From Antedon mediterranea (Eukaryota; Echinodermata; Crinoidea; Comatulida; Antedonidae), in NCBI RefSeq assembly GCF_964355755.1, contig NC_092679.1, forward strand, positions 18,590,932 to 18,654,931: 64,000 nucleotides of DNA, written 5' to 3'. A model generated the notes under the pieces. That model was given only the letters and a program-made list of their open reading frames with translations. It had not been told where the DNA came from and ran no database searches. This document shows, piece after piece, positions 2,484 through 61,615 of the stretch. Positions within the stretch are counted from its first letter, which is position 1, and every line of letters starts with the position of its first letter. The position numbers were made by a program, and so were the translations under genes.

Positions 2484-5400
2484 TTATGTAAGATCCATGC
2501 CACCAATAGATTTCTTGATTCGAAGTAAAATTGTTGTTAGCCATTGGTCAAGTCTAGAGATTGAGTCGTATTCTTTCACCTGTCAATAAAAAATATATAA
2601 GATATATAATAGAAGATATAACAGATGATATTGAATAGATTGATAATGTGTTACCCAAAGTTGCTGTTGAAACTGAACACACACAAAACTGTTTTGGAAT
2701 TGAGTTGGTTTTTCGTTTATATACTGTATGTATATGACAGACAGAATTTTAACCTAGGACCCTGGGATGGGGAAGCCTAGCATCTTTTTTTGGGGGTCAT
2801 TCTCATTTTTTTTTGTAGAATTTGTCTCTACAAGATTAGGAGGTATACAACTTACAGCATCGGTATAGCCATCAACATCTTCCTCTTCTAGGGCTGCCAA
2901 CAATTTCTGAAATAAAAATTAATACAAAAAAATATTCTCTAACTATAAAAATACTGAATATAGAGAAATGAAATACTGGACAGGTACATCCAGTGGTGTG
3001 TTTACATTACTCTTTTTAGAACAACACTTTCAAGGTGTTTAAAGCTCTGTCTACACCATCAAACTTTATGTGACAAGAAAATGCCATATATGGACATGAT
3101 GATGTCATATCACTGCCATATTTAAGCCTATCACTACCATATTTGGGTACATCACACATTTTTTGTCACATAAAGTTTAATAGTGGAGACAGAGCTTGAG
3201 TGTTGATTTGACGAAGTATGGTACTCACATTAAGAAGTTTATATTCACGACTATCAGCAAAAGCAGGAAACATCTCTTCATACTTTTGTACAGCGTGCTT
3301 TGCGTTTAGCGTATCTATACACATGTTACACAAAGCGGCCTTAAAGAAGTAATCCTTAGCGCTGTACTTTAATAACGGGGTATTCAACGACACTTCCGCA
3401 ACCTCGTTATAGATGTCAACGGCCTTGCTGTAATTCTCTAGTTGAGCGCTGTACTGGGCAACTTTCAGGAGGCATTTATTAGCTGAACTGTGGGAAAAAA
3501 ATATATTATTATTTTTAATTCATTATTTAATTTCTTTATAAAGTCAAAAAGTGTAAATTAACCAATGTATTCGGTCATATGACAAAGTTTATCTAATGTC
3601 ACAAAAGAAAAACATACCTGGTAGAGTCCTCTCCCTTATAGTAATCTGCTGCCCTTTCGTAATACTCAATAGCTTTCTCAAGATCGATGGAGTTGCCTTC
3701 GTAGATCTCTGCCACAGATATAAGATGTTTAGCTGCGATTGCAAAACGCCCCATGTCTGTGAAGATTTCTATGGCTTGCTGCAAACATCTCACAGCCTCT
3801 ATAGAATACAAATATAAATGGAACATTTAGTTACCACAATCAGAATTAGAGATCTTCTAATTGCAGGACACCATACCAATGAGCAACAAAAACTGTGATG
3901 TGATAGCTATCGTAACTACACCAAATTCTGTATATATGACCATTGTACTGTGCAACATTCAAGTCTTGTATCCCTCAAAATAAATTGTCAAATTTGCGTA
4001 ACTTCATATTTATGTACACTAACTTGGTGTTGCATGATACAAACAAAACAAGACACAAAATATATTCAGTACATTAAAACACATACATTATATAGCTATC
4101 CAATCATCTGTGTATACATTGTAATGTGAATCAAGATTAGACAACCATTGCTTTTACCAGAACAGAGTAATTAAAATATTTAATGTGCTGAAATTATTAA
4201 AACAGCACACTGAATTATACATAATTTCAGATTTGTGTATTCTTGACAAAGAATATCAAATTAATGTTTACTATGTAGATATATAATATTTAAAAAAATA
4301 TCAATATTTTGGTAAAAATACTGCACATTTTTCTGGAAAATAAATGAATGCATTAATTATGCAAATCTTATTAAAAGATGTAGTCTGTTGAAGAGATTAT
4401 ACGCTCCAGTTACTAATGCGATTAGTTTTCTTAATTGAAAAATTAGTTACCGGATTAGTAATACAATAACCTATATATAAAGTAGACAAGCTTAGATAAT
4501 AATAATAATAATAATATACTGTGTAGTTTAGGCACATACATATGATACAGTAGAGAGAATTTTACCCAACCTCTTTGATGTCAAGTTGACCTAAACTTAC
4601 TACTGTAGTAACATTACATACATTACAGGTGTCTCTCTTAAAGATGTATTGTCCCTTGAAATACAAAAAAAATGAAGGTCAAAATATTCTAAATTTAAAG
4701 TGGCCATATCAAAGTAATATTAAAGTTATTCACTTTAAGTCGAAAATTCGAGCTAAAAACAACAAGTTTACGTAATTAACAGGTAAATTAGTTTGATTAC
4801 ATTTCATCTGGAAAAGATGTATTGTCCCTTGAAATACAAAAAAAATGAAGGTCAAAATATTCTAAATTTAAAGTGGCCATATCAAAGTAATATTAAAGTT
4901 ATTCACTTTAAGTCGAAAATTCGAGCTAAAAACAACAAGTTTACGTAATTAACAGGTAAATTAGTTTGATTACATTTCATCTGGAAAATCATCGCAAGCG
5001 AAAGTAAACAAAGATTTCAAACCATGAGTACGCATTATGCATACGTTAATTAGGATTGTTTACAACTTGTCACGGTTGAGAAGGTATTTTCACACGGATC
5101 ATAAGGAAGTTTTATTATTATGGATACAGAGTAGCCTAACAAGCGTGTTTCATTATGGGATATGTTTTTATCGAAAACTTTGACTGGAAGTCAAAGTTAT
5201 TTTTTTAACAAAAACAACGTCTGTATTTCAGTTAAATGATTTTTTTTTTCGAAAATTTTTTGGTGATAGTTAATAATTATTATGATACTTCAAAATGAGC
5301 CACCTTTTTTCAAAATCTTTTATTTTTTATTTTTTTGGAATTAGTCAAAGGGACAATACATCTTTTAACTTTTTAACTTTAACTTTTAACTAGAAGATCA

Positions 5401-8400
5401 GTAAAGTTATATTTTCAATAGTCCTCCACTCTGGTCACAGAGTATCAGCAAACTAAGGAGGCCTTCAATTAACTAAAAATAAGGTAAAGACAATCAACCT
5501 TGTTTCAATAGTCTAGGTGTAAATATCGTGAAGAGATAAATTATTGATATTTCGTCAGATTTTATTGAAATTGTAAAGGGGCAATCAGACTTGTTATCTG
5601 ACTATTTAACTGGTCCGCAACGCATTTAACTGGCCATTGGCCGGCGGATCAGTGTTATTGCAAACGCTGATGACATACATTTTCCTTAGTTTTTCCTAAT
5701 CCAACAGAATTCAAGAAAAAGTCTAACAACATTTACCGATATGTAACCACAGGTGACAAACTGAATTGTGACATGCTATAACACAGTGATATCGACAAGG
5801 ATTACACTATACACATTATCTACTAATATTATAGAACATTCTAGAATTCTTGTGAAAATATGCAAACAATCTTTCACAATTTATTCAAATCGTGAGATAA
5901 TAGACAATATTGAACTGTTATACAAAATGCAATGATTATACAAATGGAATGAATAAGATAGGTAAATAGGAACAATTTCATGTACATAACAATCATCTTT
6001 ATAATATAGTAGTATGTGGATAAGAATAAATTACATTTCTAAATGTATCTATATTATTATGTTTATTATACATTCAAGCACTTATTCATGATGTGGATTC
6101 AGCCTAACATGCAGATTATTATCATGCGTATATATATATTCATCTGAAATTTGGCAAAAATTAGAGGGGTGGGCTTATACTTGGATTGCCATTAACAATG
6201 TAATAATGTAGTGTTTTCCCAAAGCAAGTTTTGCCAGTAAGATTTTCTTGCCAAAATTGGCTCCAACCTGTCTATTAAAAAAAACTAGTAGTAAAACTAG
6301 CCATTAAAAACATAGACAAAGAGCAATTGAAGGCTTTATTTTGTCAATTCGATAGGCAAAATACAATATTTTTTGACTTTTTTGTATTTAGTAGATTAGT
6401 TACATCTTATACAGTACATAAATAATTTGTTACTTTACTTAATTTGTCTGAATTTGGAGAGTGGGATTTGTGATTATAGATAATATTTATTTATATATAT
6501 TTTGTGTGATGGGTGAATGATTAACATAATATTAAATTGTTTTATGTTTTCTATTTGTATTGAATATTAGATAATAAATTTCATATAAAAACGATGCAGA
6601 GAGTATAGAAAAACATGCAGTCATTCCAATCAAGTCATCACTAGGGAGCTCTCGATTTGTGGCAACCAACGACCTAACAAGGTCAGGTCAATTGATGTGT
6701 CATAGGACGTCGCCTGGACCTAGAAACCATTAAAATGATGTAGTTTGGTTGTCGGTCGTCACAAATCAAAAGCTCCCTATCAGGTACTCATATTCAAACA
6801 CTCTATTCATTGATGCGAAAAGGAACATGCACACCATACTATCAATACAATTTTCAGTTTATACTCAATTACTTATACTGTACAATGTTCAGTTTGACAC
6901 TTGTGAAACAAAACTATGTATAAACAGATTAAAAACCCGCCAGCCAAAAACAACAGCAAGTAATAGAGAATCCCATGAAAAAAGCTTGTAGTTTACAGAT
7001 CAACGAAAGAGTAGCATAGATGGAACACACGAACCTCCTGTTTACATGTGTGTACATGTGAAATAATTATATATAGAGGCAGTAGATAAAATTATATTTG
7101 ATTATTGTTATAAATTTTGTATGTATTGACAATGAAAATAACCAAGCCAATCAGATTTGCTATAATCACTGAGAAAAGTAGCAGGCTAATTTGTTACTGA
7201 GCATTGTAAGTAGCACAGTTAGTTAAAATAGTGTGCAAAGAGCGCAAGTAGGATACTTGTAGCTATTGTTGTGGCTGGCAGGTTACCTAACAAGCTGAGG
7301 CAAGGTGCAGAACAATTTCCCTTTCTGAACTGAGTGTGGATTGCAGCTGGGGGGGATACAAAATCATGGCCTTAAATTTTAAATTTTCTTTAAAAAAATT
7401 GTTCCTGTATAAAACAAATTACAGGGAGTTGGTTAAACTTCTGCTTTATTCATATATTGAATAACAAATCTTTGTTATATTATTTATTAGTTTAGTGTTT
7501 AGGCCATGTTGGGACAGACAAGCATTCAGACAAGGCACAAAGCATTCTGCAATCCACCTCTGGATATTGTATCTGATACCTTCGCCGTCAACTTTCTTGA
7601 AACAGGTTCCAGCGTCCACAAGTCTGTAGCCAGCACGATGTTTCTTTTTCATCTTTTTTTCTAACGAAGCAGATTTTTTAAATGCCATTCCTGCAGCTAG
7701 ATTTCAAGAGATAGAAAAAAATCATTAGATTTTTTAGAAAAATTAACAAAAACTTACCATCCCCATCTGTTTTCTTGAAGCAAGTGCCTGCATCAACACA
7801 AGCACTTGCCGCTTCATGCTTGTTCTGTAGCCGTAGATGTATTTTAGCCGATTCGTAAAATGCGTTTCCAGCAGCTTAAAGCATAAACAAATTATTAGGT
7901 AAAACAAACAAGTTGTAAGCTCTGTATACACTATCAATCTAGTTTGACAAAAAAGTGTGTGATGTGCCCAAATATGGTACAGTAGGGATATGACATCATC
8001 GTTTCCATATATGGGCACATCACATTTTTTTGTCACATAAAGTTTGATAGTGTAGACAGAGCATTAAAAAAAATGATCTAGTTATAAAGTATACCAAATA
8101 TAATGAATACAGTTAAATCTTAAGATTGATGTTTCTACTTGGACGAAACGTAAGGAGGTAAGACCACCGGAATTTGACCAATCACAATGCGATGGGTCAT
8201 CCAAACTGTCGTTTATAATTGGTCAATTCACTTGCATTGTGCCTACATTGTTGTGAAATTCACATTTATGTTTGTGGATTGCTTGGGTGTGATTACTTTT
8301 CAAAACTTGATACAAACGATCGCAAATGCTGGACTGGTTTAAAATATAGTGGACAAAAAACTAACTAACTAAGTATTACAAATTACACATTCATAATAAA

Positions 8401-11400
8401 TTATGTTAATCAAATTAATACATTCACCACTATAGTAAAAATGTTATACGATCAACTTGATATGGAAATATAGTAACACAAAAAAAGATAAAAATATTGA
8501 TTACAGTTCATGTCTCGGATTATATGGACAATTTCTTAAAGATATATTGTCCCCTAAAAAATATATATATTTTTTTCTAAAGTGACTTTATTAAAACTGC
8601 AAATGGCCTATTTAAAAGTCTGATTTGATAAATCTTTATTGTTCATGTTTTTGGGAGACAATATATCTTTAATATTTTAATATGGTTTAAATTTATCATC
8701 ATTTTCCTGAAATATTTTCTGTCCATTTATTTAATTTTACAATAAATATTTGGATAATAGATTTTTTTATTTTAGCCATATTTAATGAGGGTGATCCATC
8801 CAGCATTTGCTGATCATTTGGGACCCTCAGAACAGATACAATATACAAAATACAACAGAAAAGTAAAAAAAAGAAAAAAAGAAAAAAAAAGAAAAAAAGA
8901 AAATTAATTACATAAGACTAAAAATCTGAATAAGAAAATTTGAAATATAGAAAATAACTGAAATGTTAAATCAAGCAAAAATATATAATATTTATATAAT
9001 AAATATTTATACTATTTTACAATGAAAACATAGTCTAGTTACAAATGAAGGTAAAAATATGTGTATTTTAATCTAGGTTTAAACCGAATATTAAGTGAGT
9101 GAGTGGCCGAGCGGTTAAGACAGTGGAACCGTAATTACGTAGCCATAACATCGGCAGAGGTTCGAGGATCACTCACTCCATGGTTCTGGTGGTAGAACGT
9201 GTCTTCTCGGATAAGGACTACAAACCGTAGGTCCAGTGTACACAACTTGCTCGTGTGCACTTTAAAGAACCTAGTACATCTTTCGAGACGAGTAGGGGTT
9301 ACCCCTGTGTATTAGTACATCACAGCCACTGATCATAACTGGGCCCTCTGGGAGATCAGTCTTTGAATGAAGAGGTTACCCAGTATAAATATATTTCAAT
9401 CAAATTCAATCAATAGGCTCCATAGTGACATTTGATTTGTGTCAATAGGACTTTCAATTTCAATCCACATTATTTTGCATTTCAATACATATTATTTTTT
9501 ATTAAAATCTCCAAGATCAGGTTGCGATTTCAATCAACAATTTGGGGATTGAAATACAATTCATTCATGGTGGTGGGTTGCATTTTCCCTGCCTGAAGTT
9601 TATTTTATCACACCAGCTACATTTTTACAACTCCCACCACTTGTCTACGCTCCAAAATAATATTACATCTTTTGTTGTATAAATAAATACCTTACCAGAC
9701 CATGCTTTTGCCATTTTAAACGAATTTGCTGCTCGTTGGTAAGTTTCACTGGCTTCTTCTAGTTTTGATGTTGATCTAAAATTATCAAATTGTAAAACCA
9801 TTAAGTCGAAACATGGAGTAATCTTCACCAGTGGCGTATCCAGGATTTTGAAGTTGGGGGGGGGGCCGGGAATTGCCAATTTGCCGACAAAATTGGTGTC
9901 ATTATCTGCTGTACATACACGATGTCTCTGATCAATATATTTTCTAGGATTACATAGTCATATTGTCTTATATGGGATAACGATGCAAAATTAAAACCAA
10001 ACCAACATTATCTGTTAGTATGTTGTATTCATATTACAATAAAGAAAGAATTAGGAAAATCTGATTTGTAGTTTTCGAAATATAGGGTCTAAAACATCGC
10101 CGAAAATTATCGTTTTTAGCCACGAAAGAAGTAAAACAATTTGCGGCCTCAGTCGACAATTCTATTAACTACGCCATTTTTGGTTAAAATAATTACATAT
10201 AATTACGTTTTTTAGTAATTTATTTTATATATAACCATTGCAAATATCAATAAAACATGTTATTAAATGCTTATAAAATATATAAAGTTGTTTACTTAAC
10301 GGAATTCGGACAAATTCATTGCTCTAACTTTGTGTAGTAACGATCAGAGAGATTCATGGCGCGAGAGAAAACATTCCGCTGCGGGTGATTCGCATCCACC
10401 AATCAAATCAGCTAGAATCCTAAATCATTCAACCGTGAGCAATGCCAATCGCGAGAAAGCTCAGCTTTGATTGGCTTACGATGACATCATATCACAAAAT
10501 GGTGGTTTTGTAGTTGAGCCTCACGGAATATTCTGTTCCAAAAATGAAATAGGGCCTACATGGATATTTTTTATGGTATATGTGCTTTTTCTTTAAAAAT
10601 TTTGAATAATAAAGGCCTCATATCGAGAAAAAAAAACGGGTTTTTGGCACTTATAATAAATATATCTTAGACAAAAAAGCACATGGCATGTGGAACTATA
10701 TAATCTCTTAGCGTAGGAAGACATACAAATCCCAGGTCATGAGAGGCTCAACTGCATGCAAAAACAAGGTTTTAGGGTAAGGTCAAAGACTTTTGAGTAA
10801 ACAATCTACCGCGTACGGCCGTACGTACGTGCTACACATTTTTTACGTGTTTCGTTAGATGTAATGAAAATAAAAAATAGTTGATCTGAAGGGATCAATG
10901 ATGATATGATATGTAAATAAACAAACACTCAAAAGAATTATGTTTACAGTTCAATTATTGTCAGAATAAATAGTTTATTTTTTTTTCCCGGCACCTTTGT
11001 TTGCCGACGGCCGCGATGATGTGCCGACGAAAACGAAATCAGGGGGGGCCCGGGCCCCCCCGGCCCCCTACTGGATACGCCACTGATCTTCACTCCATGG
11101 TCGAATCAATATTATCATTAAATATTGTAGCAATAAATGCTGAAAGAGCAGGTTTTTTTTGCTTTTCTTTTGTTGGTTATAATACAAAACATTACTATTT
11201 TTTAACTTTGAATTTTATGTCTACAAACAGTACAGACACAGTATATTAATTGTTAAAATATTGAAGAAAAATCAATAAATATTTTTGAGAAGGAAAAGTC
11301 AATTATGAGCAAGGAAAGACACAGGGAAAGGAAATTGACATTAACAAAAGCGGAATTAATTATCCGACTGTGCCTGCCTGTACTGCATGTGGATGTGGCT

Positions 11401-11784
11401 AAAAATAATAATTAAATTATTCATTTAGGCTAGGCTAGCTAGGGCTAGGTTTAGCTTATTATTAATATTATAAATAAAATTCTTCACAATATTTAATCCT
11501 AGCCCTAGTCTAGTTAGGCCTAGAATATATAGAGTACGCCCAACGGTACTGTCTATCAATCATACAGTATAATATAGTCATTTAATAATTTACCATAGGC
11601 CGAGGCTAGGCCTACACCGTACGAATTATCAACACTCTGGCATGCAGCATATCACGCGATCTGAGCGATTAAATAAAAACAAAACATACCCTCCAAACAG
11701 GCCTCCGAAAAAAGTCTGCGACGACTTGACTTTCTTCTCAGCTTCAGCAATAAGCTCTTTTCCTTTCTGCTCTTGATCTGCCAT
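2484..11784 (-). CDS. NAPA: alpha-soluble NSF attachment protein (alpha-SNAP)
   Basis: Adaptor that binds SNARE complexes and recruits the ATPase NSF for SNARE disassembly in the cytosol and at membranes. Coding exons, each bounded by GT/AG in phase: 11690-11784, 9696-9775, 7758-7874 (or alternative 7580-7696), 3618-3798, 3229-3487, 2856-2906, 2484-2579. They give 292 residues against about 295 for vertebrate alpha-SNAP. Visible landmarks are the membrane-loop segment TFFGGLFGG (24-32), the helical repeats with DMGRF and [35 protein letters not shown], and the family C-terminal signature [12 protein letters not shown]. The usual penultimate Leu is kept (MDLT end). The start is the ATG in a first exon encoding [11 protein letters not shown]. 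It is divergent from CATSPER1. Introns hold many transposons. Identity is very secure; expression of the alternative exon is not tested. Confidence 0.96.
3043..3196. mobile_element. palindromic MITE in NAPA intron 5
   Basis: Starts GCTCTGTCTACACCATCAAA and ends TTTAATAGTGGAGACAGAGC, giving a near-complete hairpin. Ends about 30 bp from the exon 5 donor. Confidence 0.9.
4642..5363. mobile_element. TTAA MITE, long copy with duplicated left end
   Basis: Left terminus AGATGTATTGTCCC after TTAA (4638-4641), right terminus GGGACAATACATCT. The first roughly 172 bp are tandemly duplicated (4642-4812 and from 4814). Lies in NAPA intron 3. Nearly the same body recurs at 28035-28580. Confidence 0.88.
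5364..6643. other. NAPA intron 3, remainder
   Basis: AT-rich intronic sequence. No exon, RNA gene or clear repeat boundary recognised; a small TIR element follows at 6644. Confidence 0.5.
6644..6777. mobile_element. small TIR element (GGGAGCT family)
   Basis: Ends GGGAGCTCTCGATTTGTG and CACAAATCAAAAGCTCCC are inverted and flanked by TA on both sides, as in Tc1/mariner-type MITEs. A relative at 28005-28740 is interrupted by a TTAA MITE. Confidence 0.75.
7580..7696 (-). other. NAPA: NAPA coding exon 3, version b (candidate alternative exon)
   Basis: Also 117 bp with identical phases, acceptor ATCTAG and donor GTATCA. It encodes [20 protein letters not shown] ... [13 protein letters not shown]: the same start and end as version a but a lysine-rich middle. 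Open throughout, so it has been kept under constraint or is recent. The intron separating it from version a is only 61 bp, which would hinder splicing of both into one mRNA. Confidence 0.85.
7758..7874 (-). other. NAPA: NAPA coding exon 3, version a
   Basis: 117 bp, phase 1 at both ends, encoding residues 59-97 ([20 protein letters not shown] ... [13 protein letters not shown]). It closely follows the canonical alpha-SNAP segment. Acceptor TTTAAG, donor GTAAGT. Confidence 0.93.
7919..8062. mobile_element. palindromic MITE in NAPA intron 2
   Basis: Begins GCTCTGTATACACTATCAAT and ends TTTGATAGTGTAGACAGAGC, a clean hairpin-forming copy. Its near end is about 45 bp from exon 3a. Confidence 0.9.
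8540..8668. mobile_element. TTAA MITE, 129-bp copy
   Basis: Ends AGATATATTGTCCC and GGGAGACAATATATCT with TTAA at 8536-8539 and 8669-8672. A minimal family member. Confidence 0.85.
8867..8902. repeat. A-rich (GAAAAAAA)n simple repeat
   Basis: A-runs interrupted by G at 7-9 bp steps. The preceding 100 bp resemble a retroelement 3-prime tail, but no coding part is present to prove it. Confidence 0.7.
9095..9412 (+). mobile_element. tRNA-derived SINE (Leu/Ser-type head)
   Basis: The head contains a box A (TGGCCGAGCGG) and a box B (GGTTCGAGGATC) inside a tRNA-like fold closed by GTGAGTGAG/CTCACTC. A conserved-looking core follows (TTCTCGGATAAGGACTACAA, TGTGCACTTTAAAGAACC). The core resembles the deeply conserved eumetazoan SINE domains (Nin/Deu type) from memory only. 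Inserted antisense in NAPA intron 2. Confidence 0.75.
9829..11085. mobile_element. non-autonomous hAT element with perfect 8-bp TSD
   Basis: Termini CAGTGGCGTATCCAG and CTGGATACGCCACTG are exact inverted repeats. ATCTTCAC is directly duplicated at 9821-9828 and 11086-11093. 1257 bp, no transposase ORF, with G-rich/C-rich subterminal tracts (9856-9868, 11041-11068). Inserted in NAPA intron 1 close to exon 2. Confidence 0.95.
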
Positions 11785-12512
11785 TTTAAACAGAGTTTTT
11801 ATAATCTAACTGCCAAAAATGCACTTATCAAAATCAATCATATACGCATAAAAATGAGAGGTTTTACACGTCAATATGTATTTACATTGACTGAATATCA
11901 CTCAGCCATTTTTATTTCAGCTCGAAATATTTCTGAGCATGCGTAAACTTTTACAGTGATGACGTTTGGCAAAATGATAAAGTGCGTTTCAATCGAACGC
12001 GTTCTGAATTCATTTATTTAACGGCAAATTTGAACACGTGACGCACTGGTGGTTCATGAACATTAACCGGGATTTTTCAAGTAAATTTCGCTATCCTATC
12101 TTCGCTTAAAATATGTAAGTATAGACCAAGTATTTTCAATAAAATTAATTTACTATAGGCCTATATGATAAACTCGAAATCATAGCCTATACCTATGAAA
12201 TAAATTCACAATGTTATTTTTGTTCTTCATGTCCCAACAAGAGTGTTTCTGAGATTGAAAATAAATTGACCAATGAATTAATACAATAAACGAATGATGA
12301 ACAAATCAAAGTAAGTAGCAACATTTGATAAGCTTGGCAGGGAAACATTTTATTTTATTTAAGTCCATGGAGCAGCATGCCTGTAAAGGAATTCCATCTA
12401 CTGGAGTCGGTGCCATAGAGTGAAGTATAGGCATAGACAACTCAATAATCAATTAATTCTTTCTAGGTTATAGGCTAGACCTAGCAACATAGAACCTACA
12501 AAGTTAGACGTG
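11785..12512. promoter_or_regulatory. shared divergent promoter region of NAPA and CATSPER1
   Basis: 728 bp between the two start codons. On the plus strand a possible CATSPER1 5-prime UTR intron runs from donor GTAAGT (12115) to acceptor TTCTAG (ending 12466). No clear TATA box. A similar donor-bearing stretch occurs at about 25228, so the UTR intron may itself be repeat-derived. Confidence 0.5.
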
Positions 12513-15500
12513 ATGAAGCCCTCTAGTTCAAACAACTTGGTTCCTTCTACTGGAAAATCTTCCAACCCGTCTCTTCACAAGCAACATCTCAAAGCTCCGC
12601 ACATCGATCCCCCGAGCCAATACAACATCCAGTTGAGCCACCGTAAAGAATCCATCATCCCAAGTAACAATGTCTTCGAAACAGTCAAGATAAACGACAA
12701 AGAAGAGCTGGAAATGATGGAGAAAGAGATGAGAAAGAGGAAGCTGCTTCAGAATGCTTCTCCGTTTCACAAGATGATGTACGAGTTTACGGAGTCGATG
12801 CTTTTTAACGGTTTCATCATGGTTGTCATATTAATGAATACTGCGATACTCTGTGCTCTGACGTATGAGATAGTAGCCGTACGACTTGGTAGGACTTCAT
12901 TCAAATGATGGAAGAGTGTGTGTTTGGTGAGATAGCGGTTGGACCATGGCTTCATGGTTAATAATGGTGGACCAAACGAAAAAAAAACAACAAAAAAACA
13001 ACTTTGAAACGTTTTTGATTCAGTATAATATAGTAAAAATAATAATACAGTAAAACTCCTCCTTTGAGACTCGCCTATCAAAAATAAATGTTGGCTTCGG
13101 CGCCGTTCAACATCTTTAAAGCTCTGCCTACACTATCAAACTCTTGTGACGAAAAATGTGATGTGCCTATGGACATGATGATTTGGGCGGCACATTGCAC
13201 TTTTTTGTCAATCTAGTTTTATAATGTAGACAAAGCTTAAGTGGGTTGTCTTCACTTTCTTGATGAAAGACTCGGTAGAGAGTGAATGAATGTTTTAGCA
13301 AATTTGTTTAACAATGTTATATTTCTTAGGCTGGTACATGACGTTCGTGGATTACATATTTTTGGTCATCTACTTTCTAGAATGTGTCGTCAAACTTTAT
13401 GTCTGGCGTTTGGGCTATTTCAAGGAAGCATGGAACATAGTGGGTAGGACTATTTTGTAATAATAATTAAAAAATAAATCATCAGCAACACCAGTATATA
13501 GACACAAAATAAAATAGCACAGAACGTAAATTATGGAATACGTGCTGGGCAAAAAAAGAAGCTCTGTATACACTATCAAACTAGTTTAGTATAGTTATAT
13601 GCTTAAAAGGCCCATTTACACTAGGACGATAACGATCGAAGATAAATAGATAAATAGGCCTATGCATTTTCATACATAACACAACATAAATATAAACACT
13701 TTTCATTCCAGAACCATCTATGCTCCTTTTGATGAAAATGATATTTTCACACGTCTAATCAAATGACGTCATGATTAGTAAGAGCAATAATATCGTGACA
13801 ATACAACGATTTTATTGTTTTTATTTATCATGACATCATTTGATCAAAGACAGCATAAATGATTATCCTATAGTTCTAGAACGAAAACCTTTCTAATTTC
13901 TTTTGTTTTATGTAATGAAAATGCTTATATATTTATCGTCGATCGTTATCGTCCTAGTGGAAATGGGCCTTAAATATGTCCATATTGTCACATGAAATTT
14001 GATAGCTTAAGACCTACTACGCAGTTTTTGACATAAGCTGTCAAAGTATACTGAGGCTGAGTGGCTATTTTCCAAAATGATGAATATTTAAGAATTAATA
14101 ATAATTAATATCATGTAACTAAATCATTTGTTACTATTTATTTTTAGATTTTCTAATAGTACTGTGTAACATAGCCGATCTCTTAGTGCCAGTCATAATG
14201 GGTAACGAAGTGAACATACTGCAATTTCTAAGCATACTCCGTTCAATGAGAGCTTTGAGGGCCTTACGAGTGCTTCGTACAGTGAGGTGAGAACAAACAA
14301 GGCCAACAGCCATTAAGTCGCGTGCTACAATGCATAGTGATACCGGACCGACAGACAAACAGACCGACAGACAGACAGACAGACCGACAGACAGACGGAC
14401 CGACCGACATAGTGAACTATACTGACCGAAATTACTGAACATGTTTAAAAATGTTGAAATGTTTAAAAACATTTATATTTTTTTAATTTACACGTGCGTA
14501 GCCTGTCACTTTTGACGTGCTCGTATAACGGAATTTCGAGTTGAAAAGTAAGTCAAGAAAACAGAAATCGGGCAAGAAGAGTGCGCAATAACATTTAACG
14601 CGCAGTGCGCGCGCAAAAATCTGCGCACTCATGGCAATTTTGTAAACGCTTAAAATTGCCTGAAACGTACTCTTATTTCATCGGAAATAAATTTTGAAAA
14701 TTTTAAGCGCGCTTACGCATGCGTTACATGCGCTACGCACGTAATTGTATTGCCATTATGATGATTTATGCCCTGAAATTTATGAGTACCAAATTTTATT
14801 TAATTGTGATTCATGGTTGTTAAGATATGATTACAAACGTGATTTCGTTAAATCGTGCGTAGACCGCGTAATTTTTTATTGCGCACCGTGAAAACATAAC
14901 CACATCGATTCCTGGCCATAAGGAATATTCTGTGAAAAATTGACTTAGCTAGATTAAACTGATATCAAGATAAGGTCATAAAGCGATAAAACGCATAGTG
15001 ATACCGGACCGACAGACCGACAGACAGACCGACAGACAGACCGACAGACAGACCGACAGACAGACAGACAGACAGACCGACCGACCGACATAGTGAACTA
15101 TAGAGTCGCTTCCACGCGACTAAAAAACGGCATCACCAAATGTATTTATATTCTTTGCATTCATTTTTAAATAATTGAAAAAAGTAATAGTCTAGTATCT
15201 TTTGCAGGTTTCTAAACAGTCTACAAGTTATCATGAATACATGCCTTCAATCGATGCAATCTATGGGTGCTATCGTGTCACTAATCTTTCTCTTTCTATG
15301 TATCCTTTGAAAAAGAAGTGTTATTAGGCCCTTGTGTTGCAATATTATTAATGGTAACTTCCTCTCCACTTGATGCTCCTCTCCAGATGATGCTCAAGTT
15401 GGTTCTCTAATTGGTGCGACCTTTTCGCTACCGTTTACTCTAATTGGTGCGCTACCTTTATTGCTACTTTTTTTCCTCTAATTGGTGCGCTACCTTATCG

Positions 15501-20321: not shown

Positions 20322-21119
20322 TTACGTCACCCACTGACGATATATTTCACTCGCAGACAAAGCCTTTCCATAAAATTTGATTTCGTCAATAAATCCATAT
20401 AAATTAAATTGAGGAAAATCTTCTTTTCCTCCGAATGTAATTTGGCTACGTATGGCCGCATAAGGTGTTGGTAATTCGTAACTTATTACGTCGTACTTGT
20501 CCAAATATAAGTTTGAGAACGTTCCATTGTGTGTAAGTGTAACGTGGTGCCAATCATCCAAACCGGTAATAGCAGAATCAATCTGTGATCCTGATGGTGT
20601 TTTAAACAGTTTTACTTTAACCCGAATTGTATCATCACTTGACATCCTAATGCATCTAAGTGAATAATGGTGGTCCTGCTTTTTACCATGAACTATCAAC
20701 AATTGTTTAACATTACCATCTGCTTGACATTTAAACCAAAAACTAACAGTAAAATTTACTCCAAAATCGTAGTCGCGAAACCCATCTACAATAACATACT
20801 GCATACCGTTGAATAGAGCAGCAGTTCCAACGACGCCTGGTGGATACGTTAGATTTGAACCGTTAACTTCGCCGTGACGTTCGTTGCCGGAGACGTCATT
20901 AACGTTACCTTCAAATGCGTAGTGTGCAAGTAAATATAAGTTTGGATCTTCGACTGGTGTTGATTGTCGAGTGGCGTTATATTTGAAGCATTTCGTTGGA
21001 CTTATTTTCTCCATACATCTATTTTTACCTACCAACTTGACCATCGTTTGGTTTCTTCCACATTTGTCAAGACTTACCAGTCTCAGTAACATAAACATGA
21101 TTAACCAACGAGACAACAT
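20322..21119 (-). CDS. secreted LamG jellyroll protein, type A, copy 1
   Basis: 265 residues: signal peptide (1-about 17), cysteine module with C20, C35 and C44 around NQTMVKLVGKNRCM, a short linker, then one LamG/concanavalin A-like jellyroll (about 61-262; LLAHYAFEGNVND, TVSFWFK, DWHHVTLTHNG, YGFIDEIKFYG). This is the Laminin_G_3 type of fold, so probably extracellular; ligand unknown. One coding exon: an acceptor (CTGCTTTTCAG) lies 13 bp before the ATG and a donor GTAAGT at about 21370 suggests a non-coding first exon. Several NxT/S sites. About 95 percent like the copy at 23506. Confidence 0.88.
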   Translation of the reverse strand: MLSRWLIMFMLLRLVSLDKCGRNQTMVKLVGKNRCMEKISPTKCFKYNATRQSTPVEDPNLYLLAHYAFEGNVNDVSGNERHGEVNGSNLTYPPGVVGTAALFNGMQYVIVDGFRDYDFGVNFTVSFWFKCQADGNVKQLLIVHGKKQDHHYSLRCIRMSSDDTIRVKVKLFKTPSGSQIDSAITGLDDWHHVTLTHNGTFSNLYLDKYDVISYELPTPYAAIRSQITFGGKEDFPQFNLYGFIDEIKFYGKALSASEIYRQWVT

Positions 21120-30929: not shown

Positions 30930-32193
30930 TCAGTTAATTTTGTTGTTGTCGGCCTCCACGTTTCGCGGCGAAAGAGAGGTATTGTAGAATTTTAATTTGT
31001 CAATCAATCCATAAAAATAACGATTGGTAATGTTTACTGTTCCAATAATGACTGGGTTAGGATTGATCGGTATAGGACCAGAGCAACAGTCAGACTGACC
31101 AGACTGTATTTCTGCATTAATATACAAAGCTGTGTAACTGCCGTTGTAGGTTTAAACCACATGTCGCCAAACTCCAAATTGAACCACTGGCGTATACACA
31201 AACGTACTAGTAGTTGGTTTTGTAAAAAGTGATAGTCTTAAAGAGTAAAACCAAGTTTAATCTCAAATTCACCATCTTCCCGGAAACCATTATTCAAAAT
31301 AAACTGTTGGTCATTACCTCCTTCCAAACTTTTATACCACAAACTAACCGTAAATTCTGATCCAAAATCAAAGTTACTGAACTCATCAACAACAATGCTC
31401 TGAGAACCAGTGAAGTTGGCGGCTAAACCACTTATACCAGTTGTGTATGTTAAGTCTGTACCATTAGATCTTCCATGGCGTTCATTGCTAGATGTATCAT
31501 TTACGTCACCCTCAAATGCGTAATAAGCAAGTAAATACTGGTTTTCTCCAACCAAGACACTGTTAGTAGTTAAAGATTGACTGATAGACTCATTTTCAAG
31601 ACCATTAATTGCGGATTCCGTTTCCATTGTACTGCCACCTTCATCTGATGTCACGACATCATCATTCATCTCGGATTGAGTACTAGACTCATTTTCCAGA
31701 CCACTAGTTGATGATCCCGTTACCATCATTGTATTATGACTACCTTCATCTGATGTCATATTACCATCCATCTCGGATTGAGTACTAGACTCATTTTCCA
31801 GACCATTAGTTGATGATCCCGTTACCACCATTGTATTACGACCATCTTCATCTGATGTCATATTACCATCAATCTGGAATTGAGTACTGAACTCATTTCC
31901 CAGTCCATTAGGTGAGGATTCCATACTTCATCTGAGGTCCTGACATTGTTTTGTTGATTCTCATTAAATTGGTAAGGAGCAACCAGTTGATATTCATTGT
32001 AAATATTATACCCATTCCTTTCAAGAAACTTAAAATTATTACTGAGATAGCAAATGCGTTTTGTACTCAAGATCAACATACACTTATCGCGACCAGCTAA
32101 TCTCACAAGTTTTTGGTTGTTTCCACATTTTATTTGACGTTTACCATTTACGGCAAATATTCCAAAAACCAGGATCAACATACTGCAATACAT
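30930..32193 (-). pseudogene. broken type B LamG gene with expanded linker
   Basis: The start, signal peptide and cysteine module (KCGNNQKLVRLAGRDKCM) are intact. Lesions: a 10-bp deletion around 31925 compared with paralogs (GAAGTATGG for the longer SDEEFQSME codons), a frameshift near 31240 after FEIKLG, and TTA to TAA in the VVLTYNG motif near 31151. The linker has about three and a half copies of a roughly 34-residue unit (NGLENESSTQSEMD, MTSDEG), more than any other member. LamG pieces YYAFEGDVND, TVSLWYKSLEGG and QSDCCSGPIP are recognisable. A 3.1-kb transposon sits about 200 bp upstream. Confidence 0.85.
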
Positions 32194-35796: not shown

Positions 35797-36465
35797 GACA
35801 AGCACCTCTCTATCCACATCCCCCCTTGACATATACATAACAGGTGACAAGCACCTCTCTATCCACATCCCCCCTTGACATATACATAACAGGTGACAAG
35901 CACCTCTATCCACATCCCCCCTTGACATATACATAACAGGTGACAAGCACCTCTATCCACATCCCCCTTGACATATACATAACAGGTGACAAGCACCTCT
36001 ATCCACATCCCCCCCTTGACATATACATAACAGGTGACAAGCACCTCTATCCACATCCCCCCTTGACATATACATAACAGGTGACAAGCACCTCTATCCA
36101 CATCCCCCTTGACATATACATAACAGGTGACAAGCACCTCTATCCACATCCCCCTTGACATATACATAACAGGTGACAAGCACCTCTCTATCCACATCCC
36201 CCCTTGACATATACATAACAGGTGACAAGCACCTCTATCCACATCCCCCCTTTACATATACATAACAGGTGACAAGCACCTCTATCCACATCCCCCCTTA
36301 ACATATACATAACAGGTGACAAGCACCTCTCTATCCACATCCCCCCTTGACATATACATAACAGGTGACAAGCACCTCTCTATCCACATCCCCCCTTGAC
36401 ATATACATAACAGGTGACAAGCACCTCTCTATCCACATCCCCCCTTGACATATACATAACAGTAA
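35797..36465. repeat. about 46-49-bp minisatellite, about 14 units
   Basis: Unit GACAAGCACCTCTATCCACA followed by TCCCCCCTTGACATATACAT and AACAGGT. Each unit contains the small palindrome AGGTGACAAGCACCT. Units differ by presence of CT and number of C. Frame-open but not coding. Confidence 0.95.
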
Positions 36466-36499: not shown

Positions 36500-38790
36500 A
36501 TTGATGGCTGCATCGGTAGCATCGGCAACGTGATATCCACGTGCATGTATTATTTGGGTCATTGTTTTTAAATTTTACACCGTCAAATTTACAAACAGGC
36601 TTATTGATAAGTAAATGAGAATTGTTAGACCTGATTCGATAACTGATTCCAAATGGGGATAATCCTTTGAAAATATGATAATTTGTGAAATTCAGTTTTA
36701 CACTTTTCGTACATAAGAACATGCTGGTCAGATGCAGTTCTTGTAATTCGACAACCTTCGGTATATAGAAGAATTACATTTTACATTATCAATTTGAATA
36801 TCGTAATGGCCATATTTGCACTTCTCTTCTATAAGAAAGCGGTAGGAGATTAAGCTCGTCAAGTCTTTCTTTGTAATCGGATTCGGGATAGTAAAGGATA
36901 AATTTAGTGGCCCACCGTTGAATTCGTTCCACTTTAATTAAATTACGTTTAGAGGTTCCACTCAAGATATTTTACTAGCAGTTTTTATACTAACATTATT
37001 ACTTTCAATTTTAAAGTCATTTGGGTAAAGAGAGAAAAGAACAGGAGAAAGAACACATCCCTGATGGACACCCGTGTTAGTGAAAAGAGTACTAACTAGA
37101 AGAATGTCCACCTATCCTAACCACCTGTGGTCTGTTTGATAGAAAATCACCAATCCACAAGATTATGTGTGAATTAATATTCATATCACAGAGTTTCCGG
37201 AGCAGAATATGTGATTGGATAGTATTAAAGGCTGAAGAGAAATCGAAGAACATAGAGCGAACATATGATCGCGGTCTCTCGAGACCAGAAAAAACAGACT
37301 CAAAAAAAGTTAAGACTGCATCACTAACCCCTTTCTTACTCTTATATGCAAACTGACACGGATCACGTAACTCATTACAGTACATTCATTTAGCAGAAAA
37401 TGCTTAACAATGGATTATAGACACTTCATAATGATCGATGTCAAGGCAACGGGTCTAGAGTCGTTGTTAGTACTTGGTTTAGGTTTTTTAGGGAGTGGTG
37501 TTATTGAGGACTTTTTCCATATCACAGGTATACAGTAGTATGCGAATGATGTGACCAATTAAATAATTTATGAAAGACATAACTTATTTCATTCGAACAT
37601 CTTTTGATAAGCTTCGCAGAGATACCATCAGGTCCTGTAGCTTTTCCAGATTTAACATTCTTAAAACAATTCCTAATTGTATTAATGTCTAATTCTAAAT
37701 CACACATATGTAAATTATTTTTAATTTCTTGAATCACGTTATCTTTGTCATCAATAAAACGAGTCAAAACGAGTATAAAAAGTGTTCAAGTCATTTAAGT
37801 CCAAATTCGAGTCCAACTTATTTTCTTTCTTTCCGATTCCTGTTATAGATTTCAAGCCTTTCCATGTTGATTTAGTATTTTTTCTGTTTAAAACTTTTCT
37901 TTCCATACTTTTCTTTCACTTCCTTTATTTTTTTCCTTATCAACAGTTTTATTTCAGTAAGACGCGCCAAGTCATTGTTTTTAAAGGTTTCCTGTTTACT
38001 AATTATACGTTCACGTAGTTCTTTTATCCACGGCTTGTTGTTTGCATAAACTTTAAATTTCACATCTGATATAATGCTGTTCTCACAGAACTTAATATAT
38101 TCCGTTACGCATTCTGTAGCATTATCTATTGAAGACGCATTATCTAGAAAAATATCCCAATTAGTATTATCAAAGCAGTCCTTCAATTCTTCCTCATTTT
38201 CTTTGCTCCATTTCTTAACAGATTTAACCACAGGTTTTTCGCGCTTAACCTTCTGTATATATTTAGGTAAAAGATGCACCATATTGTGATCAGACAATCT
38301 AATTGCCGGGTTATTCTCAGCTTTGTACGTGTTCTTAATCTTACTGTAACAGAGGTCGATGGTTTTCTCCCTTCTAGTTGGAATATTTAGGCCTACATGT
38401 TGATATAAGTTAAGTAGGACATGATTCAACTTACACTTGTTAAAGTCACCAAGAATAATAGATACCGCTTCAAGAGATTTATTTTGAAGATAATGATAAA
38501 TCTCGGAAATTTTAGATAGCACTTGCTATATTAACATCAGCTCCAGGGTGGACATATACCATGGTAATGAATATCTGATTCTCTTGGTAGATAGAAAGGA
38601 CGCGACCGGAACGCTAGTAACTCCACACGACCATAATTATGTAACTACTGGAATAGATTGGCGGTAGTCCAGGCTAGGTACAATAACATCAATTTCATCG
38701 AAAACGAACAATATAACAGCAAAACAACACAACCACATATTTCTATAAAATATCATAACGGTTGGATGACAACAATAAATACAAAAAAAA
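36500..38790 (-). mobile_element. degenerate non-LTR retrotransposon (endonuclease-RT)
   Basis: Reading minus: endonuclease end (ILGDFNKCKLNHVL; RLSDHNMVHLLP), a linker, RT motifs (GKATGPDGISAKLIK; FFDFSSAFNTIQSHILL; TGVHQGCVLSPVLFSLY near 37050), then the C-terminal QRWATKF and YKERLDELNLLPLSYRRE around 36850. Frames change several times and the segment with the catalytic F/YADD box is missing between about 37020 and 36960. 5-prime truncated. CR1/Jockey-like by motif order. Confidence 0.85.
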
Positions 38791-48664: not shown

Positions 48665-49200
48665 TAAGTTGTGCTTATGTGATATTGAAAAACAAAAATG
48701 CATTCAAAAATTTAGTTCACATAATAAGTTAAGGCTCTTTTCTCTTTATAAAAAAGAAATATGTTTAAGTTATCACTTGACCAACATCATTAATTTTAAA
48801 CAAAGAAGATTATTAACTAAGTTACGTTTAGGGATATTAGAGCTAGAAATTGAAAAGGGCAGATGGGAGGGTGTAGAAAGGTATAAGAGAACGTGTAAAT
48901 TATGTAAAAAGAACATTATTGAGTATGAATATCATTTTATTTTGCAATGCACATTTTATAATGATTTAAGAAAAAGTTTTATTCCAAGATTTATTCGTGT
49001 TTTTACTTCTATTAATAAGCTATGTTTATTACTTTCCAACACAAATTTTACTTATAATTTAGGAAAATACGTCTACTTTGCTTTTGAAAGAAGAAATCAT
49101 TATCTTAAGTTATAGTTATTTTTTATTTGTTTGTATTAGGGCCAAAGGCCAATATACATTGAACTAATAAATTCCCTGAAGAGGGAAAGAAGAAGAAACT
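48665..49200 (+). mobile_element. LINE 3-prime fragment, block I
   Basis: Encodes QRRLLTKLRLGILELEIEKG and CKLCKKNIIEYEYHFILQC, a C-terminal zinc-knuckle region of a non-LTR element, then a 3-prime UTR with hairpins (GGGCCAAAGGCC; TTCCCTGAAGAGGGAA). Duplicated with the LamG block. Confidence 0.8.
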
Positions 49201-54502: not shown

Positions 54503-55582
54503 TTATTTAATAATTTCAGTCGCGTTGTAATAGTAGGTTTCCACATGCTGTGAAGCAACTGTAATATTGTAAAATTGGACTTCATCAATCAAGCCATAAA
54601 AATAACGCCTGTTGCTGCCATGTGCTGTTCCAATAACGACTGGGTTAGAATTGATCGGTATAGGACCAGAGCAACAATCAGACTGACCAGATTGTATCTC
54701 TGCATTGACATAAAACGCTAGGCAACTTCCATTGTAGGTTAAAACCAAATGTCGCCACACTCCAAATTGAGTCACAGGAACATATTCGAATCTAGAAATA
54801 GATCGGAATAAAGTAAAAAGTGATACAAATAAATTATTAGGACCAAGTTTGAATTCAAATTCACCATCGTCCCGGAAACCATTATTCAAAATAAACTGTT
54901 GGTTATCACCTCCTTCCAAACCTTTATACCACAAACTAACTGTAAATTCTGATCCAAAATCAAAATGACTAAACTCGTCAACAACAACTCTTTGAGAGCC
55001 AGTGAAGTTGGCGGCTAATCCACTTACACCAGTTGTGTATGTTAAGTCTGTACCATTAGATCTTCCATGGCGTTCATTGCCAGATGTATCTTTGACGTCA
55101 CACTCAAACGCGTAATAAGCAAGTAAATACTGGTTCTCTCCAACCAAGAGATTGTCATAGTTGCCACTTTGCGTACTGGACTCAGTTTTCAGACAATTAG
55201 TTGACAATTCAGATTCCATTATATGATCTTCACCTGATACATCATCATCCATCTCGAATTGAGTACTAGACTCATTTTCCAGTCCATTAGTTGAGGATTC
55301 CATACTTTGAAATTCTTCATCTGACGTCATGACACTATTTTGTTGATTTTCATTAAATTGGTGATGAGCAACCAGTTGATATTCGTTGCAAACATCATCC
55401 ACACTCTTTTTAAGAAACTTAAATTTAACACTGGAACATATAATGCACTTTGAAAGTAACACTACCTCCAACATACATTTCTCTCGATCAGCCAGTTTCA
55501 CTAATTTTTGGTCGCTTGTACATTTACCATTTACGGCAAATATTCCAAGAGCTACGATCAGCGTTAACGAACTGCAATACAT
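54503..55582 (-). CDS. secreted LamG jellyroll protein, type B (block II)
   Basis: 359 residues: signal peptide (1-about 19), cysteine module C21/C36/C46/C49, C65, acidic Ser/Thr linker (about 70-147; SDEEFQSME, NGLENESSTQFEMDDD), LamG (about 150-350) with LLAYYAFECDVKD, SLWYKGLEGGDNQQ, RHLVLTYNG, one QSDCCSG unit and GLIDEVQFYN. Single coding exon after acceptor TTAG; non-coding exon donor near 56055 and cassette at 56251. AATAAA overlaps the stop codon. Nearly the same as the 58691 gene, including non-coding flanks, so a recent duplicate. Function unknown. Confidence 0.9.
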   Translation of the reverse strand: MYCSSLTLIVALGIFAVNGKCTSDQKLVKLADREKCMLEVVLLSKCIICSSVKFKFLKKSVDDVCNEYQLVAHHQFNENQQNSVMTSDEEFQSMESSTNGLENESSTQFEMDDDVSGEDHIMESELSTNCLKTESSTQSGNYDNLLVGENQYLLAYYAFECDVKDTSGNERHGRSNGTDLTYTTGVSGLAANFTGSQRVVVDEFSHFDFGSEFTVSLWYKGLEGGDNQQFILNNGFRDDGEFEFKLGPNNLFVSLFTLFRSISRFEYVPVTQFGVWRHLVLTYNGSCLAFYVNAEIQSGQSDCCSGPIPINSNPVVIGTAHGSNRRYFYGLIDEVQFYNITVASQHVETYYYNATEIIK

Positions 55583-56579: not shown

Positions 56580-57480
56580 TCACTAATTATTTTGTAGTCT
56601 GGGGAATGTCATATGGCACAAACATTATTGAAAAAACACATACTAAATTTTGTAGATATTTATTTCAAGTTGGGAAAAATGCACCAAATACCGCTGTTAT
56701 TTCTGAGTTAGGTAGATTACCACTTTCTTTGGATTGTTTAGTTACAGTTATAAGATTTTGGTTACATATTATTACTTTAGATCATGACAGATTCATTTTT
56801 AAGGGTTATGAGTTTCAACTTAGAAAAGTTAACCGTAATGAGAATTGTTGGGCACAACAGGTCAAACACTTACCTTTTTCTACTGGTTTTGGTTATATAT
56901 GGTTACAACAATATGTTAATAGTAAAGGTTTATTTTTGAGAGAATTTAAGTTGCGCTTATGTGATATTGAAAAACAAAATGCATTCAAAATTTAGTTCAC
57001 ATAATAAGTTAAGGCTCTTTTCTCTTTATAAAAAAGAAATATGTTTAAGTTATCACTTGACCAACATAATTAATTTTAAACAAAGAAGATTATTAACTAA
57101 GTTACGTTTAGGGATATTAGAGCTAGAAATTGAAAAGGGCAGATGGGAGGGTGTAGAAAGGTATAAGAGAACGTGTAAATTATGTAAAAAGAACATTATT
57201 GAGTATGAATATCATTTTATTTTGCAATGCACATTTTATAATGATTTAAGAAAAAGTTTTATTCCAAGATTTATTCGTGTTTTTACTTATATTAATAAGC
57301 TATGTTTATTACTTTCCAACACAAATTTTACTTATAATTTAGGAAAATACGTCTACTTTGCTTTTGAAAGAAGAAATCATTATCTTAAGTTATAGTTATT
57401 TTTTATTTGTTTGTATTAGGGCCAAAGGCCAATATACATTGAACTAATAAATTCCCTGAAGAGGGAAAGAAGAAGAAACT
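56580..57480 (+). mobile_element. LINE 3-prime fragment, block II (longest)
   Basis: Open from NTAVISELGRLPLSLDCL through LQQYVNSKGLFLREFKLRLC, then a frameshift from shortened A-runs near 56975-56990, then the zinc-knuckle end as at 48665. No RT core, so a dead 5-prime truncated copy. Confidence 0.85.
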
Positions 57481-60739: not shown

Positions 60740-61615
60740 AAATAAATATCTTCACTAACTATTTTGTAGTCTGGGGAATGTCAGATAGCACAAACATTAT
60801 TGAAAAAACACATACAAAATTGTGTAGATATTTATTGCAAGTTGGGAAAAATGCACCAAATACCGCTGTTATTTCTGAGTTAGGTAGATTACCACTTTCT
60901 TTGGATTGTTTAGTTACAGTTATAAGATTTTGGTTACATATTATTACTTTAGATCATGACAGATTCATTTTTAAGGGTTATGAGTTTCAACTTAGAAAAG
61001 TTAACCGTAATGAGAATTGTTGGGCACAACAGGTCAAACACTTACCTTTGGTTTTGGTTATATATGGTTACAACAATATGTTAATAGTAAAGGTTTATTT
61101 TTTAGAGAATTTAAGTTGCGCTTATGTGATATTGAAAAACAAAAATGCATTCAAAAATTTAGTTCACATAATAAGTTAAGGCTCTTTTCTCTTTATAAAA
61201 AAGAAATATGTTTAAGTTATCACTTGACCAACATCATTAATTTTAAACAAAGAAGATTATTAACTAAGTTACGTTTAGGGATATTAGAGCTAGAAATTGA
61301 AAAGGGCAGATGGGAGGGTGTAGAAAGGTATAAGAGAACGTGTAAATTATGTAAAACAATAGCAATGCACATTTTATAATGATTTAAGAAAAAGTTTTAT
61401 TCCAAGATTTATTCATGTTTTTACTTCTATTAATAAGCTATGTTTATTACTTTCCAACACAAATTTTACTTATAATTTAAGAAAATACGTCTACTTTGCT
61501 TTTGAAAGAAGAAATCATTATCTTAAGTTATAGTTATTTTTTATTTGTTTTTATTAGGGCCAAAGGCCAATATACATTGAACTAATAAATTCCCTGAAAA
61601 GGGAAAGAAGAAGAA
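60740..61615 (+). mobile_element. LINE 3-prime fragment, block III
   Basis: Homologous to 56580-57480, with different breaks: loss of a few bases near 61045 and a deletion inside the zinc knuckle (CKLCKT) at 61355. Confidence 0.85.

Follow-up and report, generated by a model that had tools for sequence, protein, structure and literature searches.

The alpha-SNAP gene of the crinoid Antedon mediterranea carries two adjacent versions of one coding exon, here called 3a and 3b, and the best explanation of the whole pattern, judged from sequence, is that the choice between them probably yields two alpha-SNAPs with different SNARE or membrane handling. As the shared adaptor for the recycling of SNAREs by NSF, alpha-SNAP is usually treated as one form, bar the vertebrate alpha/beta gene pair. 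The exon pair lies in the window, the whole 64-kb stretch of DNA that was analyzed, and was compared with the complete 354-Mb genome.

Alpha-SNAP gene model and tandem exon pair

The alpha-SNAP gene is intact and is read from the minus strand, from an ATG at 11784 to a stop codon that ends at 2484. Its coding sequence occupies seven positions (1, 2, 3a/3b, and 4 to 7), the third being available in two versions, as follows:

11690 to 11784, minus strand: alpha-SNAP exon 1, coding part (frame open from the ATG at 11784, donor GTATGT, translated match)
9696 to 9775, minus strand: alpha-SNAP exon 2 (AG acceptor, donor CTG/GTAAGG, protein match)
7758 to 7874, minus strand: exon 3a, 117 nt, canonical version, residues 59 to 97 here and 60 to 98 in mammals (acceptor TTTATGCTTTAAG, donor ATG/GTAAGT)
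7697 to 7757, minus strand: 61-nt intron separating 3a from 3b (CTAAT branch-point-like match)
7580 to 7696, minus strand: exon 3b, 117 nt, the alternative rich in lysine (acceptor TCTCTTGAAATCTAG, donor AAG/GTATCA, no G at +5)
3618 to 3798, minus strand: alpha-SNAP exon 4, which takes 3a or 3b in frame (spliced reading frame)
3229 to 3487, minus strand: alpha-SNAP exon 5 (protein match and reading frame)
2856 to 2906, minus strand: alpha-SNAP exon 6 (protein match and reading frame)
2484 to 2579, minus strand: alpha-SNAP exon 7, coding part to the stop (spliced reading frame)

The introns measure 1914, 1821, 61 (between 3a and 3b), 3781, 130, 322, and 276 nt. The protein carrying exon 3a matches mammalian alpha-SNAP with a score of 430 bits, and the full-length match, the N-terminal FF loop, and the aligned equivalents of K122 and K163 identify it as a member of the alpha-SNAP/Sec17 family. 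Comparison of the full-length isoform-a protein with the genome gave eight matches, all of them inside this gene. The genome profile search with PF14938 was above the cut-off in all four of the matches listed, which also fall in the alpha-SNAP gene. As far as these searches show, this appears to be the only alpha-SNAP gene in the genome.

Exons 3a and 3b are both 117 nt long and stand in the same phase, 61 nt apart, each with AG before it and GT after it. Their split codons are also common to both, a G/CT codon being completed at the start and a G/AG codon being left at the end. Spliced between 9696 and 3798, either exon gives an open alpha-SNAP of 292 amino acids; 3a and 3b joined in series are likewise in frame and open to the normal stop (331 amino acids), and skipping of both leaves an in-frame product of 253 amino acids. 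For the prediction of mutually exclusive exons, the part of PMC5740500 that describes WebScipio lists a candidate in the adjoining intron, the same or nearly the same length, the same frame without a stop, GT-AG borders, and similarity. All of these features, from location to similarity, are found in 3b.

The original prediction had described two 117-nt exons of the same phase at 7874-7758 and 7696-7580 of the minus strand, 61 bp apart, the first being canonical and the second keeping both ends around a lysine-rich middle. The coordinates, the splice sites, and the open frames agree with this description, the distance is as measured, and the kept ends and the lysine-rich middle are seen in the 3a/3b alignment. 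Exon 3a is indeed the canonical version, with 23 of its 39 residues identical to those of mammalian alpha-SNAP.

Predicted consequences of the exon swap for the protein

Mammalian numbering was fixed on eight published residues (F27, F28, E39, E40, E43, D80, K122, and K163), all eight of which fit a single offset, and the exon covers mammalian residues 60 to 98. Over these 39 residues, 3b is identical to the mammalian protein at 18 positions and to 3a at 21, compared with the 23 shared by 3a and the mammalian protein. The exon carries a net charge of +7 in 3b, against 0 in both 3a and its mammalian counterpart, and residues 73 to 80 of 3b form the basic run KKMKKKHR. The run ends at position 80, where mammals have D, 3a has E, and 3b has R. 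This position gives a specific residue to the suggestion, made in the original prediction, that the alternative segment could affect SNARE binding.

D80 is one of four acidic residues (EEED) that were mutated together to disrupt the contact with a positive patch near the SNARE C-terminus, and the EEED mutant slows disassembly by NSF, a milder defect than that of K122E,K163E, which abolishes it (PMC6130971). In the part of that study dealing with these mutants, the effect of D80 is known only from its joint change with the three other acidic residues. In the alignment, those three are located in exon 2 and are present and unchanged here, and the equivalents of K122 and K163 are present outside the swapped exon. 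The mammalian positions 39, 80, 122, 163, and 203, which read E, D, K, K, and K, are spaced 40 to 42 residues apart, suggesting that they may be equivalent places in successive repeats. The R at position 80 of 3b would thus make this place basic, like the grip sites that follow it along the protein.

The hydrophobic pattern of the segment is largely kept. The mammalian protein and 3a agree in having a hydrophobic or small residue at 19 positions; 3b keeps such a residue at 16 of them (shuffle P 0.0125) and departs from the pattern at residues 66, 73, and 84. At the second of these, L73 is replaced by K at a position that is hydrophobic in both comparison sequences. The isolated 38-residue fragments were modeled with AlphaFold2 in single-sequence mode, which gave, at low confidence and out of context, one helix at residues 4 to 27 for 3a (pLDDT 69.8) and no helix but two short strands for 3b (pLDDT 63.7, pTM 0.25). 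These fragment models give no support for equal folds of 3a and 3b, and they carry little weight.

In the mechanism that we propose, 3b would swap one segment of the size of a helical hairpin, leaving its two ends and the larger part of its hydrophobic pattern intact. The acidic SNARE-contact position, D80 or E80, would become R80 in an exon with a net charge of +7, and this change of charge would sit close to the alpha-SNAP end contacting the C-terminal portion of the SNARE bundle. Because of R80 and the added charge, we infer that the 3b form would differ in its binding to particular SNARE bundles or to acidic membrane and would alter the efficiency of disassembly by NSF in the cells that use it. 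Taken by itself, a changed handling of SNAREs or membrane by the 3b form is a proposition that we regard as evenly balanced.

The charge reversal at the D80 position would also fit a 3b form that acts as an inhibitor or decoy, binding SNAREs or membrane and disassembling poorly, such that its splicing lowers alpha-SNAP activity. The slowed disassembly by the mammalian EEED mutant and the presence of the K122 and K163 equivalents outside the exon point in the same direction. Nevertheless, 3b alters a single member of the EEED quartet, and the defect of the full EEED mutant is itself the milder one according to the mutant comparison in PMC6130971; we therefore consider this reading possible but doubtful.

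The +7 charge and the basic run at residues 73 to 80 might instead give the 3b form another cellular address, through an acidic lipid patch or a nuclear import signal, with SNARE binding unaltered. KKMKKKHR looks similar to short basic motifs of the kind that serve as nuclear signals or lipid patches. However, the residue at position 80 is on the SNARE face, as described in part of PMC6130971, and a change of address by itself seems to us unlikely.

A short intron and the probable choice between 3a and 3b

Candidate branch points in the intron at 7697-7757 come from pattern matching: the best is CTAAT, whose A is at +33 relative to the donor and 28 nt away from the acceptor, and a second, TTAAT, is found at +15. 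Vertebrate work places the steric threshold for joint splicing at approximately 50 nt from donor to branch point (section on steric interference in PMC7969005). If this limit applies here, 3a and 3b cannot be joined.

For comparison, intron lengths were estimated from the gaps between adjacent exon matches in kinesin (134 rows) and TCP1 (56 rows) genes of the same genome. None of the 87 estimates was at or below 61 nt, or even at or below 75 nt; the smallest was 83 nt, and the medians were 397 and 378 nt. In this survey, two exons separated by under about 60 nt might have been scored as one match. An excess length above 30 nt was noted in 14 single matches, and the six of them with at most 69 nt extra were checked by a permissive GT-AG scan, which gave candidates in all six. 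Those of 51, 56, and 57 nt (at L010, L008, and L006) occur at matches with internal stops and were read by eye, which is not proof, as matches overrunning the exon end into a longer intron. Myosin rows were left out of the survey because just the best 65 of 334 candidates had been scored. As seen from these estimates, the 61-nt intron is shorter than the introns ordinarily spliced in this genome, all 87 kinesin and TCP1 values being longer. The argument from spacing made in the original prediction is strengthened by this count and by a best branch-point match that lies 33 nt from the donor, inside the threshold of about 50 nt.

The two donors are of unequal quality. That of 3a, GTAAGT, is the full consensus, and that of 3b, GTATCA, has no G at +5, suggesting that 3a, with the stronger donor, is the default. 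Moreover, the same two ends are kept in both exons, which fits the substitution of one for the other. Since joint inclusion and skipping alike stay in frame, no frameshift would back up the exclusion, and splicing would be the sole barrier to either.

A further possibility is that 3b is an optional cassette, includable together with 3a to give a 331-amino-acid alpha-SNAP with one extra hairpin-like repeat. The open frame of the joint mRNA up to the normal stop would allow it, as would the full-consensus donor of 3a and the AG acceptor of 3b with its pyrimidine-rich stretch. An intron of 61 nt, however, is shorter than all 87 estimates and shorter than the 84-nt intron of a tandem myosin pair described below, its best branch-point match falls within the donor distance given in that section of PMC7969005, and the common ends of the two exons fit substitution. 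Joint inclusion is for these reasons decidedly unlikely.

Overall, the spacing and the common ends suggest that 3a and 3b are most likely mutually exclusive. As we picture the choice, the 61-nt intron would be too short for the branch point of 3b to work with the donor of 3a, exon 2 would join either 3a or 3b, and exon 4 would accept whichever was chosen. Exon 3a, with its full-consensus donor, would then be the default, and 3b, with its weaker donor, would be the regulated choice.

Coding constraint in exon 3b

Exons 3a and 3b differ at 42% of sites, corresponding to a Jukes-Cantor distance of 0.61, and the conservation of 3b was judged from this comparison with 3a alone, in one genome. The same residue is encoded in 22 of 40 codons, or in 20 of 38 when the codons wholly inside the exon are counted, and 12 of the identical-residue codons differ silently. 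By codon position, the differences number 14, 10, and 25 of 38 at positions 1, 2, and 3, and 8 of the 11 comparable fourfold sites differ. A simple Nei-Gojobori count gives a pS of 0.79 and a pN of 0.33 overall. With limits between ends and middle that were chosen after the alignment had been inspected, the values are 0.80 and 0.16 for the ends and 0.77 and 0.51 for the middle. In the other two frames, only 8 of 39 and 7 of 39 residues are shared, and stops are found in 3b for one frame and in both exons for the other.

When 49 changes were placed on 3a at random (20,000 times), identical residues averaged 12.2 with a maximum of 20, silent-difference codons averaged 4.0 and reached 12 or more in 2 of the 20,000, and 14% of the versions stayed open. 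Under neutral drift of 3a to a distance of 0.6, an open frame with at least 22 identical residues was obtained in 21 of 20,000 runs, and in none of 20,000 once at least 12 silent codons were demanded as well, in agreement with a smaller first simulation. At a distance of 0.3, at least 22 identical residues were kept in 9,536 of 20,000 runs, and in a single run when the silent condition was added; a young neutral copy is therefore excluded by the many silent changes alone, and not by identity. Across distances of 0.3 to 1.0, the three conditions coincided in at most 1 of 20,000 runs.

A non-functional leftover of the duplication, or a chance open frame, could appeal to the 3b donor without G at +5, to the much diverged middle (pN 0.51), and to the frequency with which a young copy keeps 22 residues, but such candidates are ruled out by the substitution pattern in the random-placement and drift simulations and are left highly improbable, since identity and silent changes are far above random placement, drift almost never combines the conditions, and 3b has retained the length, the phase, and the splice dinucleotides of the exon.

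The duplicated coding exon pair proposed for this gene is thus present, with protein-level constraint in its substitution pattern, and 3b is, on this pattern, almost certainly a functional coding exon. From the silent changes together with the kept residues, we infer that the tandem duplication of exon 3 would be old and that 3b would have been translated during most of its existence. S68, T90, C91, and G97 are common to 3a and 3b and absent from mammalian alpha-SNAP. These four residues fit a duplication after the split from vertebrates, and they are just as compatible with older states that mammals have since lost.

The 3b peptide, searched against the whole 354-Mb genome at E values up to 10, gave two matches, 3b itself and 3a, and the 3b DNA matched one place. 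No third exon version or further copy of 3b was found in the genome searches with the full-length protein, the 3b peptide, and the 3b DNA.

A hairpin-forming repeat upstream of exon 3a

One further feature is located in the intron before the exon pair:

7920 to 8061, minus strand: palindromic repeat, 142 bp, separated by 45 nt from exon 3a downstream (long RNA hairpin fold)

The fold of 7875-8075 has an energy of -71.1 kcal/mol and a z score of -9.4. The 142-bp repeat gave 89 match rows in the genome, on both strands, from the best 40 of 2501 candidates. In the window, its end motif was matched eight times, at the 7920-8061 copy and at 1939, 2281, 3051, 3165, 17312, 18546, and 18899. An RNA hairpin as the exclusion device was considered and not taken as a dedicated selector because it is a high-copy genomic repeat, and the palindrome is probably no part of the original exon arrangement. 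The copy 45 nt upstream of 3a could affect the use of 3a.

Other observations in the genome and the window

A tandem pair of myosin exons separated by an 84-nt intron was observed at G000:C1:19159516-19159821, where profile positions 107 to 152 are matched twice. In this pair, which ends in NDNSSRF, 21 of 28 compared residues are identical, and 11 of those codons differ silently. We take it to lie at the apparent stretch from the end of loop 1 to switch 1, and on sequence it is probably another mutually exclusive pair, which makes it helpful for comparison with 3a and 3b. Elsewhere, at G000:C3:19614624-25122537, one myosin-head exon (profile positions about 342 to 408) is matched at least 19 times with similar scores over approximately 5.5 Mb of a single contig, and the same region also has matches to a later exon (about 564 to 640), again among the best 65 of 334 candidates scored. 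These matches represent either an expanded family or a pseudogene array.

In the window, several related, secreted-looking open reading frames (ORFs) occupy the minus strand between 20322 and 63644, and those at 20322-21119 and 54503-55582 match Laminin_G_3 (concanavalin-like). No Pfam family was matched at an E value of 0.001 by the ORFs at 31238-31924, 37872-38522, and 12510-12908 (plus strand). The last of these is a 132-amino-acid ORF divergent from alpha-SNAP with a membrane-helix-like end, which by eye looks like part of an ion-channel gene. A minisatellite-like open frame with repeat units such as GMWIEVLVTCYVYVK was seen at 35859-36242 on the minus strand. On the plus strand, the ORFs at 48669-49115, 56961-57395, and 61017-61379 have long stretches in common, such as FSSHNKLRLFSLYKKEICLSYHL, and those sharing FSSHNKLRLFSLYKKEICLSYHL are, by eye, perhaps the end portion of a retroelement's reverse transcriptase.

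Significance and comparison with known systems

A natural swap at a SNARE-contact residue that has also been mutagenized is evolution's own experiment. The question it poses is whether the selection of SNARE bundles for disassembly, and the speed of the process, depend on the acidic contact close to the SNARE C-terminus. The 61-nt intron offers a test of branch-point crowding outside the vertebrates. We tentatively suggest, with less assurance than for the exon choice itself, that the pair may be an old splice-switch in the NSF adaptor of one marine invertebrate lineage, with a second alpha-SNAP that would select other SNARE bundles, lipids, or NSF rates. If this is true, cells could tune general SNARE recycling by splicing.

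One close likeness is to exons 5a and 5b of SNAP-25, mutually exclusive close tandem exons of 39 residues, nine of which differ (PMC2581893, in the part describing the pair). Both cases involve tandem 39-residue exons in a gene that is single-copy and serves one and the same membrane-fusion machinery. SNAP-25 is a different protein despite its name, however, and the exons diverge less there than here, where 18 of 39 residues differ. Moreover, the SNAP-25 pair is a vertebrate event shown by RNA, whereas the alpha-SNAP pair is known here from the genome sequence.

Exons 4a and 4b of OGDH are likewise a tandem pair with a short intron and a branch point close to the donor, the human branch points being 25 to 41 nt from it (OGDH section of PMC7969005). 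Those branch points were mapped by experiment, in a mitochondrial enzyme in which the exons form a calcium switch, whereas ours is a pattern match. Muscle myosin heavy chain genes also show tandem exon substitution in invertebrates, with mutually exclusive exons reported in cluster 8 of sea urchins and an acorn worm (part of PMC3912159 on these clusters). A described series of clusters exists for that gene, unlike alpha-SNAP, for which a search of open-access papers found no report of an exon pair, in agreement with the original prediction, whose author knew of none.

Compared with mammalian alpha-SNAP (NAPA), the 3a form is alike, with the 23 identical exon residues and the 430-bit overall match given above. 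The matched mammalian chains carry the canonical version, from which 3b differs by the charge reversal at position 80 and by a net charge of +7 against 0. Tandem exon substitution is a known kind of event, and alpha-SNAP appears to be a new gene for it.
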